Below, in pieces: positions 1 through 64,000 of a stretch of 64,000 bases of DNA. Source of the stretch: Bacillota bacterium (GTDB lineage: Bacteria > Bacillota > UBA4882 > UBA10575); contig DUNX01000004.1 in NCBI GenBank assembly GCA_012839115.1, positions 1 through 64,000 of the forward strand. Direction: 5' to 3'. A model generated the notes under the pieces. That model searched no databases, was not told the DNA's origin, and saw only the letters and a list, made by a program, of their open reading frames with translations. Each line of letters begins with the position of its first letter. The first letter of the stretch is position 1. A program made the position numbers and the translations under genes.

Positions 1-12
1 CCGCGTACGCGG
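1..12. repeat. 12-bp perfect palindrome at the window edge
   Basis: The first 12 bases, CCGCGTACGCGG, are a perfect palindrome with mostly alternating purine and pyrimidine. The composition matches the RY-alternating islands found elsewhere in this window (for example 13177-13268 and 63535-63760). It is probably the edge of one such island lying downstream of the nucleotidyltransferase gene. No function can be read from it. Confidence 0.5.
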
Positions 13-22
13 CGGCAAGAGC

Positions 23-2500
23 CTATTTCATTTGCAATTCGTTGATCCTCTCCATATATAGCCTGGCAAGTTCCCCAGCTTGCTCCGGAGAGGTTCCCTC
101 GCTGTAGATCTGGAAGACCGGTTCTTCGGCATCCGGTAACACAAGGGCCCAGCCGTTATCATGGAAAACCTTTAAACCGTCAACCGCTTCAATAGGCCGG
201 TCTTTATTCTCTTCAAAGAGCGCCCGCATGATCCGGCCCTTTTCCTCCCACGGGCACGCCACCTCCCGGTGTTCCATGTAAAACCGGGGAAGAGTGGCAA
301 CCAACTCGGAAAGGGTCATCCCTTCCCTGGCCACCAACTCCAGGATTTTGACGAGAGAAAGCAGGGCATCGAAGGCCGGTTGAAACTGGGTTTTCCCGTC
401 GCGGCCGGCGAAGATCTTCTCCTCTGCCACTTTTTCCATTAGAGAACGCGGATTGGCCTTTGTCCGGACCACTTTTCCCCGGTACTCTTTGGACAGTTCC
501 TCAATGATCCCGGAAGCGGTAACCGGAACAGCCACAGTACTATGCTCGGTGTATTTGAGAACCAGAAAGGCAATTAAGGCGACAAACTGCTCATCCTGGA
601 TCAACCGGCCTTTTTCGTCCAGGAGGATTAGTCTCTCGGCATTATTGTCGACAACGATCCCCATATCCGCCTGTTCTTCCCGGACCCGGCCGCCGATCTC
701 ATCCAACACGGCGAGGATCTCTTTCAGGCTTTTCGCCTTATTGTTTTCCTCTAAAAGCTGGTGGTGGATGGCGTCGCAACCCAAAACCCGCAGGAGGGTC
801 GGTAAAAGAAGGGAGAGGATCCCCCGGTCATAATTGACGACCGCTTTAAAGTGGGCATTCCGGATCTGTTGCGGACTGGTGGCGGAGAGGACCCCTTCCA
901 GGTACCGCTCGAGAAGATGGGGGACGTAAAAGACTTCCCCGATCCGGTCTGCTGCTATGCGCCGGTATTCCTCGGTAAAAAAGCGCTGCTCGATCTTGCG
1001 CTCCAGATCCCGGCTGACCGCAAAGCCCTTTTCATCCAAAAATTCCACTAGGATGCTATCGCCGTTTCTGGGCGAGACCCGCAGGTGGACCCCGCCACCA
1101 GCGCCCAGAGTGGCCAGGGCGTATCGGACAATCGGGGTGGTCCCAATCCCCAGGTCAAAAAGGTTAACCCCGGTGGCGAGAAAACCGGCGATCATCGCCC
1201 TCTTCAACGTCCGGGCCGGCTGTGAATTATCGGCGCTGATCACCACCCGTGCCTTCTCCGGGAGTAAAGAGCCGTAAGCCACCCCCAGCCGGGCGGCAAA
1301 TTCCGGCGTCAATTCTTGGTTAAAGGTCTTGTCAATGCCCAAATTTCCAAAAAGACTGTTGCACCAACGGGTCCCCCAAATGAGGCTGTTACTCAGGACC
1401 GATCCGCTTTCTATATATTTGTCCGGCCAGACCTTGACTTCCGGCCGCAGCAGTGACCGGTTCCCAACCGTAGAACCATCACCGATCACCACTCCTTCAT
1501 AGAGGGAGACCCGGGATTTTAAATGGACCCGGTGGCCTAAGACCGCCCCACGCAGTTCGGAATGGTCTCCTACGTACACATGGTTCCAGAGGATGCTCTT
1601 TTTCACCGAGACATTCTTTTGGATATGGGTATGATCCCCAAGGACAGTAAACCCGCTGATTTTGGCGGTTTTCTTTACTCTGGCATATCGCCCAAGGATC
1701 ACTGGGGGCTCAATCTCCGCCCCTTCTTCAATTTCGGTCCCTTCTCCCGCCCGGACACCCGGGGCCAATTCCTGACCGGGCAGAGGTAACCGCACTTCTC
1801 CGCTTAACAGGTCATAATTGGCCTGCCGGTACTGGTCAAGATTGCCGATATCCGACCAATAACCATCGGCAACATAGCCGTAAAGGGGTTGCCCGTCCGC
1901 CAGTAACTTGGGGAAAAGGTTCTTGCTGAAATCTACGGCGTTCCCGTGTTCGTAAAAACGGAAGATCTCCGGTTCCAATAGATAGATGCCGGTATTTACC
2001 GTATCGCTGAAGACCTCCCCCCACCCGGGCTTTTCTAAAAAGCGCCGGATCTTCCCATTTTCATCGGTGATTACCACCCCGTATTCTAAAGGCGTTTTTA
2101 CCCTGGTCAAAACCAAGGTGGCAAGGGCCTTTTTGCTCTGATGAAAGGCGATTGCCTCCGCCAGGTTAAAGTCGGTTAAAGCATCCCCGCTAATGACAAG
2201 GAAAGTCTCGTTCAAAAAATCTTCGGCGTTCTTAACGCTACCCGCTGTCCCGAGCGGGGTATCTTCAGTAAAATATCGCAGGGTGACGCCGAATTCATCC
2301 CCATTGCCAAAGTAGTTCTTGATCACCTCCGGCAGGTAATAAAGGGTTACCGCGATCTGGGTCAGACCATGGTGGCGAAGAAGCCCGATAATATACTCCA
2401 TTATCGGGCGGGTCGCCAAAGGGACCATTGGTTTTGGCAGTTTGCAGGTGAGCGGGCGGAGTCTGGTCCCGGCTCCTCCCGCCATTATTACAGCTTTCAA
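23..2500 (-). CDS. Sugar-1-phosphate nucleotidyltransferase fused to a degenerate phosphomannomutase-like domain
   Basis: This 825-residue protein has three parts. Residues 1 to about 235 are a nucleotidyltransferase with the signature MAGGAGTRLRPLT and a KP(M)VP motif, which joins NTP and a sugar 1-phosphate. About 250-370 is a left-handed beta-helix of hexapeptide repeats. About 380-825 is a phosphoglucomutase/phosphomannomutase fold. The PGM/PMM part lacks hallmark residues: the phosphoserine loop usually written TASHN reads RVSPRN near residue 473, and the DGDGDR metal loop reads DNNAER near residue 618. Such fusions are often annotated mannose-1-phosphate guanylyltransferase, but the actual sugar is unproven and mutase activity is doubtful. 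A GT4 glycosyltransferase gene lies 99 bp upstream on the same strand, so both may serve glycan synthesis. Confidence 0.85.
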   Translation of the reverse strand: MKAVIMAGGAGTRLRPLTCKLPKPMVPLATRPIMEYIIGLLRHHGLTQIAVTLYYLPEVIKNYFGNGDEFGVTLRYFTEDTPLGTAGSVKNAEDFLNETFLVISGDALTDFNLAEAIAFHQSKKALATLVLTRVKTPLEYGVVITDENGKIRRFLEKPGWGEVFSDTVNTGIYLLEPEIFRFYEHGNAVDFSKNLFPKLLADGQPLYGYVADGYWSDIGNLDQYRQANYDLLSGEVRLPLPGQELAPGVRAGEGTEIEEGAEIEPPVILGRYARVKKTAKISGFTVLGDHTHIQKNVSVKKSILWNHVYVGDHSELRGAVLGHRVHLKSRVSLYEGVVIGDGSTVGNRSLLRPEVKVWPDKYIESGSVLSNSLIWGTRWCNSLFGNLGIDKTFNQELTPEFAARLGVAYGSLLPEKARVVISADNSQPARTLKRAMIAGFLATGVNLFDLGIGTTPIVRYALATLGAGGGVHLRVSPRNGDSILVEFLDEKGFAVSRDLERKIEQRFFTEEYRRIAADRIGEVFYVPHLLERYLEGVLSATSPQQIRNAHFKAVVNYDRGILSLLLPTLLRVLGCDAIHHQLLEENNKAKSLKEILAVLDEIGGRVREEQADMGIVVDNNAERLILLDEKGRLIQDEQFVALIAFLVLKYTEHSTVAVPVTASGIIEELSKEYRGKVVRTKANPRSLMEKVAEEKIFAGRDGKTQFQPAFDALLSLVKILELVAREGMTLSELVATLPRFYMEHREVACPWEEKGRIMRALFEENKDRPIEAVDGLKVFHDNGWALVLPDAEEPVFQIYSEGTSPEQAGELARLYMERINELQMK

Positions 2501-5387: not shown

Positions 5388-5417
5388 CTTGGCGTGCACG
5401 CGCACGCGCGCTTCCGC
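5388..5417. repeat. Alternating purine-pyrimidine island between panB and panC
   Basis: A run of about 25 bases made almost only of GTGCAC, GCGCAC and GCGCGC steps lies in the 200-bp gap between panB and panC. It belongs to the same class of RY-alternating islands as 13177-13268. A reading frame through it on the minus strand does not resemble a protein. No promoter or terminator is clear. Confidence 0.55.
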
Positions 5418-6512: not shown

Positions 6513-6592
6513 GATCGTGGGGTACCACACGTGCGTGAGTACCGCGCATGCACGGGCCCGCGCGTACATGAACGCCACGCGAACCCGCATAT
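6512..6592. repeat. Alternating purine-pyrimidine island between panB and folB
   Basis: This stretch carries GGTACC, CACGTG, GCGCATGCAC, GGGCCC, CGCGCGTACATG and similar palindromic hexamers in close succession. It occupies part of the gene-free space 6383-6771. The rest of that space shows no recognisable gene. The composition matches other islands in the window. Confidence 0.6.
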
Positions 6593-10839: not shown

Positions 10840-12696
10840 TCACTCAAGGTTACCGGCATCTGCAGGCAAATACCACTCGTTGTTTGACCGGTCAACATCA
10901 GGCCACCATTTTTCCGGGTCTAAAGAAACAACCAACGGCGGGCCGGCGGTCTCCACCAAAACCCAGCCGCCGTCCACAGGAAAACCGGTGATTACCTCCT
11001 TTTCTTCTCCGGCGGTCTCCACCCGCAAAAGGATCCGGCCCCGGAATTCCCTGCCGGTTTCCTCCCCCGCAGGTGCGCAACCTACCAGGATTTGCGAAAT
11101 GCAGCCATCTTTGTGTTCCACGGTTACAACCTGTCGTACCTGCAGATCCAGACGGGTGTTGGCGTAGAGGAAGTAATCAAAAAACCAGTCCAGGCCGTTC
11201 TCTTCAGTTCCGTTTTCCCCGGCATCACTTTCTCCGCTCCGCCCTTCCTCACTGTTACCGGCTGTCCGATCCCCGGCTGCGGTCACACTGGCCCTGGCTG
11301 CCAGTTCCCGCAGGCCTTCCCATGTTCCTGCACGTCCCTGCGAAGTCCAGAAAAACTCGCGCAGCAACTCAAAAAAGGCCTCGTCTCCCAGGTGAAAGCG
11401 GAGCGCATGCCAGACCAGGGGGGCCTTATAATAAGCCAAATCCCTCTGGGCATCCCAGAGAGGATAGATCCCGGCCAACGGTTTTTCGCTCCTTTTGAAC
11501 CGTGCCAATGCCGCCAAATATTTCTGGTACCAGTCTTCCAGGATAAACCCGGCTTCTTCCGTAGTGTGTAACCGGGAAAAGGCCAGATACCCGGCATAGC
11601 GGGCCAGGCTTTTGGCTAAAAACCCGCCCTTCTCACAGGAGGAAAAGACGGTTCCTCCCCACCAGATCCCGGCAATCTTCTCCAATAACCGGCGTTCTGT
11701 TTCCGGGGAAAGCAGGATTTGCCTGTCTCTGCGGGCGGTCCGGTCGTCCAGGTTAAATGCAGTGTAATATAGGTTTGAATCGCCTGGAGATTCTAAACCG
11801 GGACTAAAAAGAAAATCATGCTCATTCCGGGGTAAATCTCCAAAAAGCTCATGGAAATAACCAGCTGCCGCCGTTGTCTTCTCCATCAATTCCGAAAAAA
11901 GGTCATTCTCAACGTCCTTACGGTAGAAAACAAAGGGATAACCCGGAGCATTCTCTGGATCGCTTGTTTCTCCTGTCTCCTCTGCCTGCGTGCTCCCGCC
12001 CGCTTCTATCCTCTGTAATTCCCAGGTCTTTCCGATTTGAAGCATGGCGGCGGGTACAGGATAGGGAGAAGAAAATTCATATGATTTTACCCCGTCCTTC
12101 ACCTCTGTAACCAAATCCAAAACCCCGGAAAAGACCGGCGTCCAGCCCTGGTCCACGATGCATTTGAATAAGTCGATCTGCCCTCCCTGGCACATTTGCG
12201 GAGTCTGCGGGTACCAAAACTGATCCGCCGAAAAAAAGAGGAGCTTTTTCCTGCGGGAGACGGAGCCGGTATAAAGCAGATAAAGAGCGTTGGATTTTTC
12301 CCCGTCTTCAATAGGTTTCGGATAGACCTTCCAAAAAGTTACTTGCCCGCAGGTGAACCATTTCTCAAAATGAAGGTTCTTCCCGTTTTGTTTAATCGAC
12401 TCAAAAACAAAACCGTTATGTAAAATAAACGGTTGAAAACCCGGGGCTTCCGTCCCGGCCTCATATTCAATAATACTTTTCCCGGTAACCATCCCCGGAG
12501 AAAAGCGGATTTCGACTTCATGGCCAATAACGGTTAACCGGTCTGCATGGAATGCCTGATCCAGGCGGAGATCTGTTTTTCTGCCGGCATGTAGGAGATA
12601 AGCCCGTCGCACGGGGGTATTAAGCAATAAGCTCCCGATCACAATCAAAAAGAGCAGGAGGAAAGATAAGGAAATCTGAGAAAGCCTTTTTTTCAT
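10840..12696 (-). CDS. Membrane-anchored M1-peptidase-like protein lacking zinc ligands
   Basis: 618 residues with an N-terminal hydrophobic anchor (about 8-26) and an extracytoplasmic body. The fold hints at the M1 aminopeptidase superfamily: an N-terminal beta-rich part, a catalytic-like part with IAGIWWGG (about 340-347) where active enzymes have the HELAHQWWG type motif, and a following CEKGGFLAKSLARYAGYL block where the third ligand glutamate normally lies. The HExxH residues are replaced by EKIAG, so zinc catalysis is unlikely. Two acidic, glycine-rich inserts (around 235-250 and 485-510) look like flexible linkers. GGAGGAATATA precedes the ATG. Role unknown; perhaps a pseudoenzyme or scaffold at the cell envelope. 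Confidence 0.55.
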   Translation of the reverse strand: MKKRLSQISLSFLLLFLIVIGSLLLNTPVRRAYLLHAGRKTDLRLDQAFHADRLTVIGHEVEIRFSPGMVTGKSIIEYEAGTEAPGFQPFILHNGFVFESIKQNGKNLHFEKWFTCGQVTFWKVYPKPIEDGEKSNALYLLYTGSVSRRKKLLFFSADQFWYPQTPQMCQGGQIDLFKCIVDQGWTPVFSGVLDLVTEVKDGVKSYEFSSPYPVPAAMLQIGKTWELQRIEAGGSTQAEETGETSDPENAPGYPFVFYRKDVENDLFSELMEKTTAAAGYFHELFGDLPRNEHDFLFSPGLESPGDSNLYYTAFNLDDRTARRDRQILLSPETERRLLEKIAGIWWGGTVFSSCEKGGFLAKSLARYAGYLAFSRLHTTEEAGFILEDWYQKYLAALARFKRSEKPLAGIYPLWDAQRDLAYYKAPLVWHALRFHLGDEAFFELLREFFWTSQGRAGTWEGLRELAARASVTAAGDRTAGNSEEGRSGESDAGENGTEENGLDWFFDYFLYANTRLDLQVRQVVTVEHKDGCISQILVGCAPAGEETGREFRGRILLRVETAGEEKEVITGFPVDGGWVLVETAGPPLVVSLDPEKWWPDVDRSNNEWYLPADAGNLE

Positions 12697-13176: not shown

Positions 13177-13268
13177 ATCGTGGACTTCATCGTGCACGTG
13201 CAAGTGCACGTGCACGCTCATATATTCGCGTGCAGGCATGCACGCGAATATATGTCGTGCGATAGATC
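13177..13268. repeat. RY-alternating element with two perfect hairpins between feoA and feoB
   Basis: Two perfect inverted repeats lie side by side. CGTGCACGTGCA (13191-13202) pairs with 13205-13216 around a two-base loop. ATATATTCGCGTGCA (13220-13234) pairs with 13239-13253 around GGCA, a 15-bp stem. No T-run follows either, so neither looks like a terminator. The DNA is almost entirely alternating purine-pyrimidine and rich in GTGCAC, GCATGC and CGCG. It may form cruciform or Z-DNA, or act as an RNA hairpin in the feo transcript. Confidence 0.8.
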
Positions 13269-15503: not shown

Positions 15504-15546
15504 GGTTCTTACCGGTAAAGAACTGCCATATGCATGAATTGAACGG

Positions 15547-15577
15547 TGCCGCGCGCGTCACGGCGTAAGCCGTGAAT
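15547..15577. repeat. Short CG-alternating tract with 7-bp hairpin
   Basis: GCCGCGCGCG is followed by TCACGGC (15558-15564) and its complement GCCGTGA (15569-15575) around GTAA. It sits between feoB and the DtxR-family gene and resembles the other RY islands. There is no T-run. Confidence 0.5.
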
Positions 15578-18476: not shown

Positions 18477-20336
18477 CTATCTTTCCACCCTTTCGATTGC
18501 GCCGAACGGGCATAATTGCACACAGAGCATACAGCCGGTGCAAAGCGTTTCATTGATAACGATCCGTCCCTTTTTCTCCCCGGCCGTGCGCGAGACGGCC
18601 ACCGCCGGGCAGCCGATGGCCAGACATCTCCGGCAAAAGGTGCATTTTTCCTCATCCACCCGCACCAAAACCCGGGTTTTACTCCGGTCGAGCAAAACAC
18701 AGGGGCGCCGGGCAATGATGACCGATGGGTCTTCCGCCTGCACCTCTTCTTTGACGGCCTTCTCCAGTTCCGTAAGGGCAAACGGGTCAACGACCTTCAC
18801 CCGCCGCACCCCCACCGCCTTGGCTACCTGGACCAGGTCCAGCCGGTTGGTGGGTTCTCCCCGGAGATCAAAGCCTGTCCCCGGATGGTTTTGATGGCCG
18901 GTCATACCGGTGGTATTATTATCAAGAATGATGACTGTACCACGGCCTTTATTGTAAACAAGATCCGTCAAACCGGTAATCCCCGAATGGATGAAGGTGG
19001 AATCACCGATTACGGCTACCGCCTTCCCGGCAAATTCCGGCCCCCGCGCCTTTTCCATCCCGTGTAACATCCCGATGCTAGCGCCCATACAGATACAGGC
19101 ATCCATAGCCCCGGTTGGCGGCAGGGCGCCCAGGGTGTAACAGCCAATATCCCCTAGAACTGTAAGGCCCAGTTTCTTTAGGACATAAAATACCCCCCGG
19201 TGCGGGCAACCTGGACAGAGAACGGGCGGCCGCGTTGGAATGGCTTCTACTTGTGCTCCGGCTTTTGCTTCTTCCTTTTCCTCCTTGGTGTTTGCCCCGA
19301 AAATCCGCTCCCGCAAGACTCCGGGGAGGAGCTCGCCGGTGGCTGGAAACAGCTTCTTACCGGTAACCCGGATCCCCAACGCCTTTAGTTGCGTCTCCAA
19401 AAACGGGTCTCCCTCTTCAATGACGTATAATTCTTCCCGGCCTTGGGCAAAATCAACAACCAGCCGTTCCGGGAGCGGATGAACCATCCCCAGTTTCAAA
19501 TAGGAGACTTCACCAAAGACCTCTCTGGCATATTGATAGGCGATGCCGCTGGTAATAACGGCTGTTTTTCCGTTCCCCGCTTCCACCCGGTTTAATTGCA
19601 GATCCGTCTGGGTCTGTGTATGCGTATCCGCAAGTGTATCCCCAGGCGTATCCGCGTGCTGATCCACATACATATTCGCGAGCGAATAAGTATTCGCCGC
19701 CTCCGCCAACCGGGCCATCCTCTGCTCCACAATCTCCCGGCGCTGCCGGGCCATTCCCGGTAGCATCACATACTTGGAGAAGTTCTTGACATAATCCCAA
19801 AGAGGTGCTGTTTTCCGTTCACCAACTATAACCACACCGCGGGTATGGGCAACCCTGGTGGTAAGACGGACCAAAACCGGGCAATCAAACTCTTCGCTCA
19901 AAGAAAAGGCGGTCAAAATATAATCCCGGCACTCCTGGGCATCGGCCGGTTCCAGCAACGGAATTTTCGCCGCCAAAGCGTAATACCGGGTATCCTGTTC
20001 ATTTTGGGAACTGTGCATACCGGGGTCGTCGGCCACCACGATCACCAGCCCGCCGTTGATCCCGGTGTACGAGAGGGTAAAGAGGGGATCCGCCGCCACA
20101 TTCAAGCCCACATGTTTCATGGTACAAAGTACCCGTGCCCCCCCGATCGCCGCACCGGCGGCCACTTCCAGGGCGACCTTTTCATTGGGCGCCCACTCGC
20201 AGTAAATCTCCTTGTAGCGGCTGATGGTTTCCGTAATTTCCGTACTCGGTGTCCCGGGATACGCCGTGGCTACCGTGACCCCGGCTTCATAAGCCCCCCG
20301 GGCTACCGCTTCGTTACCAAGCATGAGTTCTTTCAT
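18477..20336 (-). CDS. iorA: Indolepyruvate:ferredoxin oxidoreductase, alpha subunit
   Basis: About 619 residues. Domain order: pyrimidine-binding domain (LGNEAVARGAYEAGV, then YPGTPSTEI), a linker, a TPP-binding domain (GDSTFIHSGITGL, then ILDNNTTGMTGHQ), and a C-terminal two-cluster ferredoxin domain with CTFCRRCLAIGCP and CTGCMLCVQLCP. The start at 20336 is chosen from GAGGTG eight bases upstream and family alignment. A low-complexity insert near residues 215-245 (DNA 19600-19695) has a four-residue period, DTPG DTLA DTHT; it is encoded by a 12-bp repeat with RY-island character. Such an insert is not expected in IorA. Confidence 0.92.
   Translation of the reverse strand: MKELMLGNEAVARGAYEAGVTVATAYPGTPSTEITETISRYKEIYCEWAPNEKVALEVAAGAAIGGARVLCTMKHVGLNVAADPLFTLSYTGINGGLVIVVADDPGMHSSQNEQDTRYYALAAKIPLLEPADAQECRDYILTAFSLSEEFDCPVLVRLTTRVAHTRGVVIVGERKTAPLWDYVKNFSKYVMLPGMARQRREIVEQRMARLAEAANTYSLANMYVDQHADTPGDTLADTHTQTQTDLQLNRVEAGNGKTAVITSGIAYQYAREVFGEVSYLKLGMVHPLPERLVVDFAQGREELYVIEEGDPFLETQLKALGIRVTGKKLFPATGELLPGVLRERIFGANTKEEKEEAKAGAQVEAIPTRPPVLCPGCPHRGVFYVLKKLGLTVLGDIGCYTLGALPPTGAMDACICMGASIGMLHGMEKARGPEFAGKAVAVIGDSTFIHSGITGLTDLVYNKGRGTVIILDNNTTGMTGHQNHPGTGFDLRGEPTNRLDLVQVAKAVGVRRVKVVDPFALTELEKAVKEEVQAEDPSVIIARRPCVLLDRSKTRVLVRVDEEKCTFCRRCLAIGCPAVAVSRTAGEKKGRIVINETLCTGCMLCVQLCPFGAIERVER
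19600..19695. repeat. In-frame 12-bp periodic repeat inside iorA with RY-island composition
   Basis: From about 19622, the units GCGTATCCGCAA, GTGTATCCCCAG, GCGTATCCGCGT and GCTGATCCACAT run in tandem. They are followed by ATATTCGCGAGCGAATAAGTATTCGC, which carries an inverted repeat TATTCGC/GCGAATA. The frame through iorA stays open because each unit is 12 bases. The sequence class matches intergenic islands such as 13220-13253. Confidence 0.75.
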
Positions 20337-20622
20337 AAAAAATCGCACCTCGAACCTGTATTCAGCGTGAGCAAAAAATATCCTACCGGCGGGATCGCAT
20401 TGCAATCTGTGCGTGCACCGGCAATATCAACCGCCGGTTATTGCCTAACGCCGGTTATATTTTATGGTATCACAAATAAAGGACGGAGTGCAATAGATAG
20501 GAGAAAAAGCTTCTCGTCGGGATATTTAATTTCGCGTGTGCCTGTGGGGTGCGGGTGGAATCTCCAAAACAATAACACCAAAGGGGTGGGGATGGGGTCT
20601 TACGGAAGTCATCAATCAAGGG
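20337..20622. other. Spacer between iorA and the SARP-type gene
   Basis: This 286-bp region should carry the iorA promoter on the minus strand. I see ATAAAATATAAC near 20455-20470 but no convincing -35 box. Short alternating tracts (GTGCGTGCAC near 20410, CGCGTGTGCC near 20532) are present. No gene is seen. Confidence 0.4.
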
Positions 20623-32214: not shown

Positions 32215-32275
32215 GCGTACGCGAATTTCCGGATTTAACTTGTTCGCCCTGCGCGCACATGCGCGGATATGCCTT
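32211..32275. repeat. RY island at the ctpA/deacetylase junction
   Basis: GCGTACGCGAATTT and GCGCGCACATGCGCGGATATGCC flank a short spacer. The island covers the space between the ctpA stop and the internal ATG of the deacetylase gene. It would be coding only if translation starts at 32301. Confidence 0.5.
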
Positions 32276-46798: not shown

Positions 46799-47628
46799 TT
46801 ACTGTGTCCAGGAGGTGTCGCGCGCGGGGGCGCGCGGGTGCATATACCTGCGCGGGCGTACGCATATGGATAACCGTTGGAATTCTTTTGCTTTTCTCCA
46901 TCCCGGTTTTTCCCGGCGGAGGCGCACTCACGTACGCGGAAGAGAACAGTACCTTTCAAATAGTGGACAACCTTTATGCCCGGCGTTGTGAAGCTCCGGA
47001 AAACTCCCGGCGGATGATGGAAATAATAGAAGAGAAGCTCGCCGCGGACGAACAGAACCCCGGCAATTATGAACTGCTCTGGCGGGCAGCCCGCGGCTAT
47101 CTTTTCCTGGGTGACTACGCCGGGGAGAGCAAAGAAAAGCTCCGCCTGTATGAGAAGGGAAAGGAATACGCGGAACTGGCTGTTGCTGCCAACAGCCAGG
47201 GCTATGAAGGCTTTTTCTACCTGGGGGTATTAATCGGCAGCATCGGAGAGGAACGGGGGGTAATGAACAGCCTTTTTATGGTCAAACCAATGCGGAACGC
47301 CTTGGAACGGTGCCTGGAGATCGACCCGGAACGACCCCTGGCCTATAACCCCCTGGCACAGCTTTATTGGAAAGCCCCGGGCCGGCCGCTGAGTATCGGT
47401 AATATCAAAACCGCTCTCCAATTGGCAGAAAAACTGGTGACCTTATCCCCGGATTCTCCCTACGACTGGTACATATACGGCTGTATCGCCCTGGCGACTA
47501 AAGAACGGGATCTGGCTATGGAAGCTTTTACTAAATGCCTCTCTTTTCCTGAAGATCCCGAAGATCCGCGATTGGACCGTGAGGCTAAAGAATCAGCCCG
47601 GGCAGAATTGGATAAATTAAAAAAATGA
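46789..47628 (+). CDS. Exported TPR-repeat protein (TatT-like)
   Basis: About 279 residues. A hydrophobic signal segment (IWITVGILLLFSIPVFPG) is followed by about five TPR-like helix pairs, including NYELLWRAARGYLFLGDYAG, YAELAVAANSQGYEGFFYLG and ALQLAEKLVTLSPDSPYDWY. It resembles the TatT family of TRAP-transporter-associated TPR proteins, although no transporter gene is near. Residues 10-27 are encoded by a CG-rich RY island placed right after an AGGAGG (46810-46815); the original start may have been near 46880. The true start is uncertain. Confidence 0.6.
   Translation: MGVITVSRRCRARGRAGAYTCAGVRIWITVGILLLFSIPVFPGGGALTYAEENSTFQIVDNLYARRCEAPENSRRMMEIIEEKLAADEQNPGNYELLWRAARGYLFLGDYAGESKEKLRLYEKGKEYAELAVAANSQGYEGFFYLGVLIGSIGEERGVMNSLFMVKPMRNALERCLEIDPERPLAYNPLAQLYWKAPGRPLSIGNIKTALQLAEKLVTLSPDSPYDWYIYGCIALATKERDLAMEAFTKCLSFPEDPEDPRLDREAKESARAELDKLKK
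46814..46868. repeat. RY island at the N-terminus of the TPR gene
   Basis: GTCGCGCGCGGGGGCGCGCGGGTGCATATACCTGCGCGGGCGTACGCATATG continues directly after an AGGAGG. It would lengthen the signal peptide by a charged CRARGRAGAYTCAGVR segment. A similar short CACGTACGCG lies at about 46927-46937. Confidence 0.65.
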
Positions 47629-49939: not shown

Positions 49940-49987
49940 GGAAATTAACCTCTCTTATTACCCTGGCGTAATTTCATATAATGCCTT

Positions 49988-50022
49988 ATTCGCGCGGTAT
50001 GGCGCGGTGGCATGCGCGCTAA
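49988..50022. repeat. RY island between Nudix and secreted-protein genes
   Basis: ATTCGCGCGGTATGGCGCGG and GCATGCGCGC lie in the 79-bp space between two minus-strand genes. It matches the island composition seen elsewhere. Confidence 0.5.
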
Positions 50023-55050: not shown

Positions 55051-55095
55051 CTCTTGCACCCGTTTTCTCCCTCCGTTCAAGGATCGTTCCTTTTG

Positions 55096-55210
55096 TACGA
55101 ATGCACAGCGTACCTACGCTGAACGGTCCGTTGCAATACGCACAGGCACGCGGTGCGTAACCGGGAAAAACCCGCTAAACCATACGTTATTTCCACAGGC
55201 GCGCGCAGCA
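55096..55210. repeat. RY island between argB and argJ
   Basis: The 208-bp gap between argB and argJ carries GTACGAATGCACAGCGTACC, CAGGCACGCGGTGCGTAAC and GGCGCGCGCAGCACGTAAAG. This is one of the larger islands and lies inside what should be an arg operon. No terminator or promoter is clear. Confidence 0.6.
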
Positions 55211-60060: not shown

Positions 60061-60235
60061 CATGCACGTAAGCGTGTGCGGCACGCTAACGTGCCGGGGA
60101 CCCGTATGTGTTGAGAAGCGTATGGGCTGGGCACATGTACGTGCCGGGTAAATCTCTTTAACCAGCTGCTCTGACTTATGCCTTTCGTGTATGCCGCGCA
60201 TGGGGGTGTGCTATACCAACGGCGCCGGCATGGGC
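60061..60235. repeat. RY island between DUF1540 and ZIP genes
   Basis: CATGCACGTAAGCGTGTGCGGCACGC, CACATGTACGTGCCGG and GTGTATGCCGCGCATGGGG occur in the 237-bp gap. The pentadecamer ATGTGTTGAGAAGCG (60105-60119) has a near copy at 61073-61087. No gene is seen. Confidence 0.55.
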
Positions 60236-60250
60236 TCATGACATATCTTG

Positions 60251-61603: not shown

Positions 61604-61975
61604 TTACTCTTTATCGCGCAGGGCCTCTTTAGCTGCTTCCAATACTTTGGAAGGGGTGAAAGGTTTGACGATATAGTTCACGGCCCCGGCGACAATCGCT
61701 TCGACCACAAGGGGCCTTTGTCCCATGGCTGTACACATGATTATGCGCGCTTCCGGGTCGATTTTTTTGATCTCCTTAACCGCATCAATCCCGGACATTT
61801 CCGGCATGGTGATATCCATCAGCACCAGATCCGGCTTTATTTCCTTATATCTCGCTATCGCCTCCAGACCGGTGGCGGCTTCTCCGGCAACTTCATACCC
61901 GGCTTGTTCAAAAATGCGGGCCAGCATCAACCGCATAACTTTGGCGTCGTCAACCAGCATAACCCGGTGTGCCAT
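61604..61975 (-). CDS. Stand-alone CheY-like response regulator
   Basis: 123 residues, a single receiver domain. Acidic pair in MLVDDAKV, phospho-acceptor Asp in LVLMDITMPEMSG, the switch Thr in MCTAMG and Lys in VKPF. No output domain, no kinase and no other chemotaxis genes are near. The ATG at 61975 has GGGGGG upstream. In spore formers such single-domain CheY proteins may also work outside motility. Confidence 0.9.
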   Translation of the reverse strand: MAHRVMLVDDAKVMRLMLARIFEQAGYEVAGEAATGLEAIARYKEIKPDLVLMDITMPEMSGIDAVKEIKKIDPEARIIMCTAMGQRPLVVEAIVAGAVNYIVKPFTPSKVLEAAKEALRDKE

Positions 61976-63534: not shown

Positions 63535-63752
63535 TTCATATACGAATACGTTTTCCACGCATATGCTTATAGTTAATATTCCCCGGCCGTTGCCGCTTAT
63601 ACAAAACCCGCCCATGTACGAAAGCGAGCGCGTACGAGACGCCCACATGAAACGCACGCACAAAGTGCACGCGCGAGGTTCCGTGTACGATGCGTACGCG
63701 CTTGCTGTGCACGCGCAAAGCGCCGCACGATGCGCACGCGCTTGAAGCGCGA
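63535..63752. repeat. Largest RY island: 218-bp alternating region upstream of ypeB
   Basis: Most of the stretch is GTACGC, GCGCGC, GTGCAC, GCATAT and similar steps. Examples are GAGCGCGTACGAGACGCCC near 63627-63645 and GATGCGTACGCGC and TGTGCACGCGC near 63690-63717. It ends at the stop of the small ORF in CTATTCGTGAG. A related run is at 63904-63932 (ACACGCGCCGCGTGATATACGCGC). No gene or promoter is recognised. Confidence 0.65.
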
Positions 63753-63869
63753 CTATTCGTGAGATGACCCGGTAGCCCTTTTCTCTTTTGCAATCAACGC
63801 CTTCAGCCCGGCATGGTCACCGAGTAAAAGCAGGTGTTTAATCAATCTCTGCAGATCCTTTCCTCGCAA
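63753..63869 (-). CDS. Possible 38-residue small protein upstream of ypeB
   Basis: A TTG start at 63869 with GGGAGG exactly seven bases upstream (63877-63882) opens a frame of 38 residues: MRGKDLQRLIKHLLLLGDHA, then GLKALIAKEKRATGSSHE. It is amphipathic and basic. The ribosome binding site is as good as those of confirmed genes here. The stop lies in an RY island. The sequence resembles nothing I know. Confidence 0.45.
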   Translation of the reverse strand: MRGKDLQRLIKHLLLLGDHAGLKALIAKEKRATGSSHE

Positions 63870-64000
63870 AAAAAAACCTCCCGGTTAATGATTTCGGTCG
63901 CCCGTTACACGCGCCGCGTGATATACGCGCAACAAAACTCATTATATTACCGGAAGGAAAAAAAGTGCCGGGCAATAATCATTCCTGGCTGCAGGTGGAG
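63870..64000. other. Right edge, unassigned
   Basis: The last 130 bases include the short RY run ACACGCGCCGCGTGATATACGCGC (about 63907-63930) and an AT-rich stretch. A minus-strand frame (LHLQPGMIIARHFFSFR then stop) enters from the right edge, but it matches no SleB-like ending. I assign no gene. Confidence 0.3.

Follow-up and report, generated by a model that had tools for sequence, protein, structure and literature searches.

Comparison of orthologous intergenic spaces supports well the reading that the alternating purine-pyrimidine (RY) islands dispersed through this Bacillota genome are insertions. In their turnover between congeners, their nearly random sequence within a strict alternation, and their occurrence inside genes, the islands look like the marks of an unusual process of DNA synthesis or repair, and not like a functional element.

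Genome, window and samples

The window analyzed here covers the initial 64 kb of a contig of 78.7 kb, from a genome of 2.35 Mb in 148 contigs (G000), and its genes include ypeB, ilvD, argJ, argC, feoB, and panB. The nearest named records were Bacillota MAGs (AS09scLD isolates, 93% and 90% identity in YpeB), and a more distant record carries the label Hydrogenispora. The island-bearing genus is associated with digesters. Two congeners, G001 and G002, were used for direct comparison with G000. Genomes were sampled by regions, and later batches of G000 and G001 were partly picked by RY hits; rates are therefore quoted from contigs chosen without regard to islands. Genes were called with a simple, purpose-written caller. 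A 618-aa open frame on the minus strand (10840-12696) had no match in Pfam or NCBIfam, and its ortholog in G002 lacks a 93-bp stretch.

RY alternation exceeds the expectation from composition

The initial annotation described the islands as a dispersed family with a dinucleotide grammar and no fixed consensus, and listed 13 intervals. With an island segment called at an RY score of at least 9, such a segment was found in 12 of the 13 (Table 1); the remaining interval, 1-12, scored 5.7 and is the end of the contig. Window positions 1-24 are identical to the start of another G000 contig, C102 (CGCGTACGCGGCGGCAAGAGCCT), and this shared end is probably repeat sequence at which the assembly broke.

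Alternation in the best 60-bp windows reached 0.85, 0.83, and 0.81, compared with a window mean of 0.44 and with maxima of 0.66-0.75 in 20 first-order Markov simulations. In intergenic samples that were partly picked for RY content, RY runs of at least 12 numbered 89 in G000 against 6.8 expected (13-fold) and 48 in G001 against 4.5, and runs of at least 16 in G000 numbered 29 against 0.27; keto-amino and strong-weak alternation in the same samples stayed close to chance. On the G000 contigs chosen without bias, 15 islands were counted across 22 kb of intergenic sequence, where a third-order intergenic Markov model predicted 1.9, and these occupied 14 of 97 intergenic spaces, while 138 kb of coding DNA held five islands against 1.7 expected. 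The islands thus lie far above what local composition would produce, and no Rfam family matched within the window. The refuting conditions set out in the initial annotation thus leave its description standing, and the run counts uphold a distinct, statistically real class. The islands are mostly intergenic, as had been described, although the accompanying view that they have no coding logic does not extend to all of them, some being located inside genes.

Table 1. RY segments in the 64-kb window, and the end-joining operon of the genome (coordinates in locus L004)
Feature	Coordinates	Remarks
Short GC-rich RY tract	5392..5411	G002 space ~190 bp shorter
Intergenic RY island	6522..6592	G002 space ~100 bp shorter
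AT-rich RY segment	7296..7336	Absent from the initial annotation
RY island between small upstream gene and feoB	13188..13264	Two perfect hairpins, stems of 11 bp and 16 bp
RY segment, then small hairpin	15524..15567	Partly conserved in G002
RY tract inside iorA	19615..19675	Absent from the initial annotation
Weak RY segment at gene start	32250..32272	
Weak RY segment	45708..45729	
RY island just before likely ATG of TPR-protein gene	46815..46868	
RY island in ~60-bp insertion	49991..50019	Insertion absent from G001 and G002
RY island	55094..55159	Recognizable orthologous island in G001; island at same place in G002
RY segment cluster with small hairpins	60061..60246	G001 space ~115 bp shorter
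RY segment inside a gene	61724-61750	Absent from the initial annotation
Main RY island, upstream of ypeB	63628..63741	Dense part of the annotated interval 63535-63760
Second RY island, same space as main island	63903..63934	Different, longer RY island there in G001
Operon of Ku, NHEJ ATP-dependent ligase, and LigD-type polymerase	L004 8589-11610	Three separate genes

Islands turn over between congeners

Where an island was found in G000 alone, the G000 space exceeded its G001 counterpart by a median of 64 bp, compared with -1 bp for spaces with an island in neither genome (P = 0.0006), and its G002 counterpart by a median of 57 bp (P = 0.019). Within orthologous spaces, 39% of island bases fell in gaps of the G001 alignment, compared with 10% of other intergenic bases, and identity to G001 at aligned positions was 58% for island bases and 82% for the rest. 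Both the alignments and the length comparison bear out the expectation that islands appear and vanish between relatives.

Individual islands of the window behave in the same manner. The main island could be aligned in neither G001 nor G002, and its flanks could be aligned. The island upstream of feoB is part of a stretch of ~150 bp that is absent from G002; the small gene on its other side, which carries no annotation here, is presumably FeoA-like, judging from its position. At the island preceding the TPR-protein gene, G000 has 45 bp that are not in G001 and 33 bp that are not in G002. The insertion at ~49955-50016 is missing from both congeners, and is thus most simply explained by a gain in the G000 lineage. 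RY insertions occur in G001 too, and most of the island differences are not polarized by an outgroup.

Fourteen spaces carry islands in both G000 and G001, which is above chance (odds ratio 11) and suggests that some islands were inherited or that the sites are hotspots. Few of the island pairs at these shared sites are recognizably homologous, and most score like unrelated islands.

Insertions inside genes

Comparison of 140 G000/G001 ortholog pairs, for insertions of at least 6 bp, revealed 35 coding insertions, all of which were multiples of three, which speaks for real DNA exposed to selection rather than an assembly artefact. Twelve of them were at least 70% alternating, where about two were expected; in sequence the coding inserts approach (CG)n, and the flanks of the coding insertions are not RY-like. 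In der, a 15-bp RY insertion (GCGCGCGTGCGCGCG) directly follows the DTAGIR motif, and in murF another of 15 bp (GTGCGCGCGCGCGCG) lies near the gene end. The RY tract in iorA (18477-20405, minus strand) adds ~20 in-frame codons relative to G002. Coding insertions specific to G002 showed no RY enrichment.

Island sequence is nearly random within the RY frame

Blastn searches (word size 9) found no similarity among the islands, except in tandem arrays and one pair at contig ends, and the islands have no fixed consensus. No template match was found in the sampled regions of three congeners, nor for the one island that was searched against whole genomes. Apart from the alternation itself, the choice of bases is close to random: identity at lags 2 to 20 in intergenic islands was at, or barely above, that of RY-preserving shuffles, indicating that the bulk of the islands does not consist of dinucleotide or longer repeats. 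Self-complementary steps (GC, AT, CG, and TA) are favored beyond composition in G000 and G001 alike, and the A to C step occurs as often as A to T. Short hairpins numbered 185 in the G000 islands against 117 under an RY-preserving shuffle (z = 5.4), and their excess in the G001 islands was not significant (z = 1.4). On folding of four islands, 13188-13264 gave z = -7.1, and the other three folded no better than shuffles.

These properties bear on the earlier suggestion that the copies arise by slippage and self-expansion, that is, by slippage of short RY seeds, or by their local duplication in tandem or inverted orientation, with later blurring by mutation. Such an origin would fit a few sites that are plainly tandem arrays, with units of 16 bp and 51 bp in contig C58 and repeats of the GTGATTACAC type in contig C28. 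It would also fit the direct repeats in G000 islands, which are modestly above the RY-preserving shuffle, and the closeness of the coding inserts to (CG)n. As a general origin it is nevertheless unlikely. Periodicity of 2 bp or more is almost absent, tandem arrays are few, and the coding insertions sit in ordinary flanks; furthermore, on the way from (CG)n to ~57% GC, at a transition/transversion ratio (ts/tv) of ~2.3, transversions would be expected to destroy the alternation. The islands share a low-complexity look and the few tandem arrays with microsatellites and minisatellites, but most of them are aperiodic in the RY frame. RY-rich arrays with 16-bp or 51-bp units were observed in L085 (8441-8581 and 19057-19324) and at the end of L227, some with GATAAG spacers, and these arrays are located at or near contig ends.

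Tests for function, mobility and artefact

The islands had also been proposed to act as protein-binding sites or topology buffers, which would make them functional Z-DNA or cruciform tracts under selection. Alternating RY DNA that contains CG steps is prone to the Z-form, one island has two perfect hairpins, and the sharing of sites between G000 and G001 exceeds chance. This role appears improbable, however, as the islands are highly divergent, are turned over rather than conserved, and are also inserted into essential genes. In confidently aligned island stretches ts/tv was 2.75, compared with 2.26 elsewhere, suggesting that the RY class is not clearly constrained; conservation of the RY class by selection was rejected because the ratio is not clearly raised. 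Co-directional, divergent, and convergent spaces are equally hit, with no preference for gene orientation, TA and AT steps are enriched along with the others, and most of the folded islands resembled their shuffles. Neither an RY pattern kept by selection nor a characteristic gene context was found.

A decayed non-autonomous mobile element is very improbable. Like REP, MITE, and HIP1 repeats, the islands are dispersed and mostly intergenic, and they are partly palindromic and present or absent between relatives; however, the lack of shared sequence or consensus largely refutes an element of the REP or MITE kind, the main island has no plasmid or phage match, and the window lacks an Rfam family. 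Least probable of all is an assembly or sequencing artefact of MAGs. In its favor, the nearest relatives with named records are MAGs, RY arrays form the ends of some contigs, and amplification can yield untemplated DNA (PMC13061963). Against it, orthologous copies of some islands occur in genomes that were assembled separately, the coding insertions invariably keep frame, most islands lie inside well-aligned contigs, and other family members lack them. Contig breaks were not caused by the islands, which were found at only 2 of 38 ends.

Distribution among relatives

The RY excess is strong in G000 and G001, weak in G002, and close to nil across most other members of the family. Perfect RY 20-mers, counted as overlapping hits, numbered 60 in G000, 53 in G001, and 3 in G002; elsewhere in the family, G005 had 15 and every other member 0-1. 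Across 61 genomes, 39 had no such 20-mer. The G000 hits overlap each other and fall in at least 25 distinct places among the matches listed. In a more distant member of the Bacillota (G034), near-identical RY words (GCATGCATGCATATACGCGTAT) were observed at several places in contigs C5, C16, and C22; these look like a true dispersed repeat, unlike the aperiodic islands of G000.

Proposed origin of the islands

For the islands of G000 and G001, the leading explanation, still tentative as a whole, is an ongoing and largely neutral insertion of new RY-alternating DNA, through untemplated synthesis and end joining. Its neutral-insertion part is likely to be correct. A process specific to the lineage would add DNA of a few to ~150 bp that is RY-alternating, otherwise nearly random, and able to form short hairpins. 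It may land anywhere, with survival mostly in intergenic DNA, and in genes only when the insertion is in frame and tolerated, and the inserted tracts would later decay or be replaced. The likeliest source would be a family A polymerase, Pol I for example, making the DNA at broken ends either without a template or, by hairpin extension, with the strand itself as template; the product might then be joined by the proteins of the Ku, ligase, and LigD-type polymerase operon. This assignment of enzymes, with Pol I or a relative as the source and nonhomologous end joining (NHEJ) as the means of capture, is the weakest step, which we infer and regard as possible rather than probable. More doubtful still is the broadest form of the proposal, in which the lineage would continually insert strictly RY-alternating random DNA that was never templated, even into essential genes.

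Several observations bear on the polymerase. Without a template, family A polymerases favor A to T, T to A, and G to C, with C to G at 74 C, and their products alternate, as GT, AT, and GTATATAC repeats (PMC13061963). The islands resemble this untemplated ("doodled", or ab initio) synthesis in their alternating RY, in their self-complementary steps, and in the hairpin-driven extension that has been described for it (PMC13061963). The match is partial: RY alternation and self-complementary steps are found in the islands, and highly repetitive short units are not. Untemplated synthesis is known in vitro, where it gives mostly simple repeats, and its traces in vivo have only been proposed, by the authors of that work, who suggest looking for such polymerase signatures in genomes (PMC13061963).

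For the joining step, Ku, ligase, and LigD-type polymerase are all present in G000. Bacterial NHEJ with Ku and a LigD polymerase, for which the operon exists here too, can add nucleotides at ends. Nucleotides added in this way usually form short stretches that lack RY alternation. Gene order in the operon is unchanged in G001, G002, and G005, and Ku is present family-wide, including in island-poor relatives. With the operon found in G002, where islands are rare, and Ku in island-free relatives, Ku fails to explain the restriction of the islands, and its presence was rejected as the cause.

Other candidate causes were also set aside. Loss of mismatch repair was rejected, as mutS-family hits were found in all relatives searched. 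Loss of SbcD does not discriminate, since no SbcD was found above the cut-off in any of the family members searched, island-free ones included; the search returned distant metallophosphatase hits only. High growth temperature was suggested by amino-acid composition, a rough estimator, for island-rich and island-free members alike. No gene was tied to the island trait.

Relation to known systems and implications

RY patterns are often suppressed in prokaryotes, with isolated exceptions at the species level; over-representation has been reported in Treponema pallidum, Helicobacter felis, and Thermofilum pendens (PMC4060949). As in those species, G000 and G001 combine a strong RY excess with normal relatives and no functional association, and both an excess over composition and a restriction to a small clade were found here. 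The survey gave no origin for the excess (PMC4060949), whereas the congeners examined here reveal insertion, turnover, in-frame coding insertions, and aperiodicity.

The RY excess of isolated species was thus noted in 2014 with no origin given, and in 2026 a study raised the question of whether the products of untemplated synthesis leave marks in genomes. The genus provides a concrete test case for that question, with congeners that have the process and congeners that do not, well-aligned surroundings, and coding insertions that remain in frame. If an untemplated origin is true, cells can generate new sequence that is not copied from a template, and the intergenic DNA of such species would be written in part by the step preferences of a polymerase.
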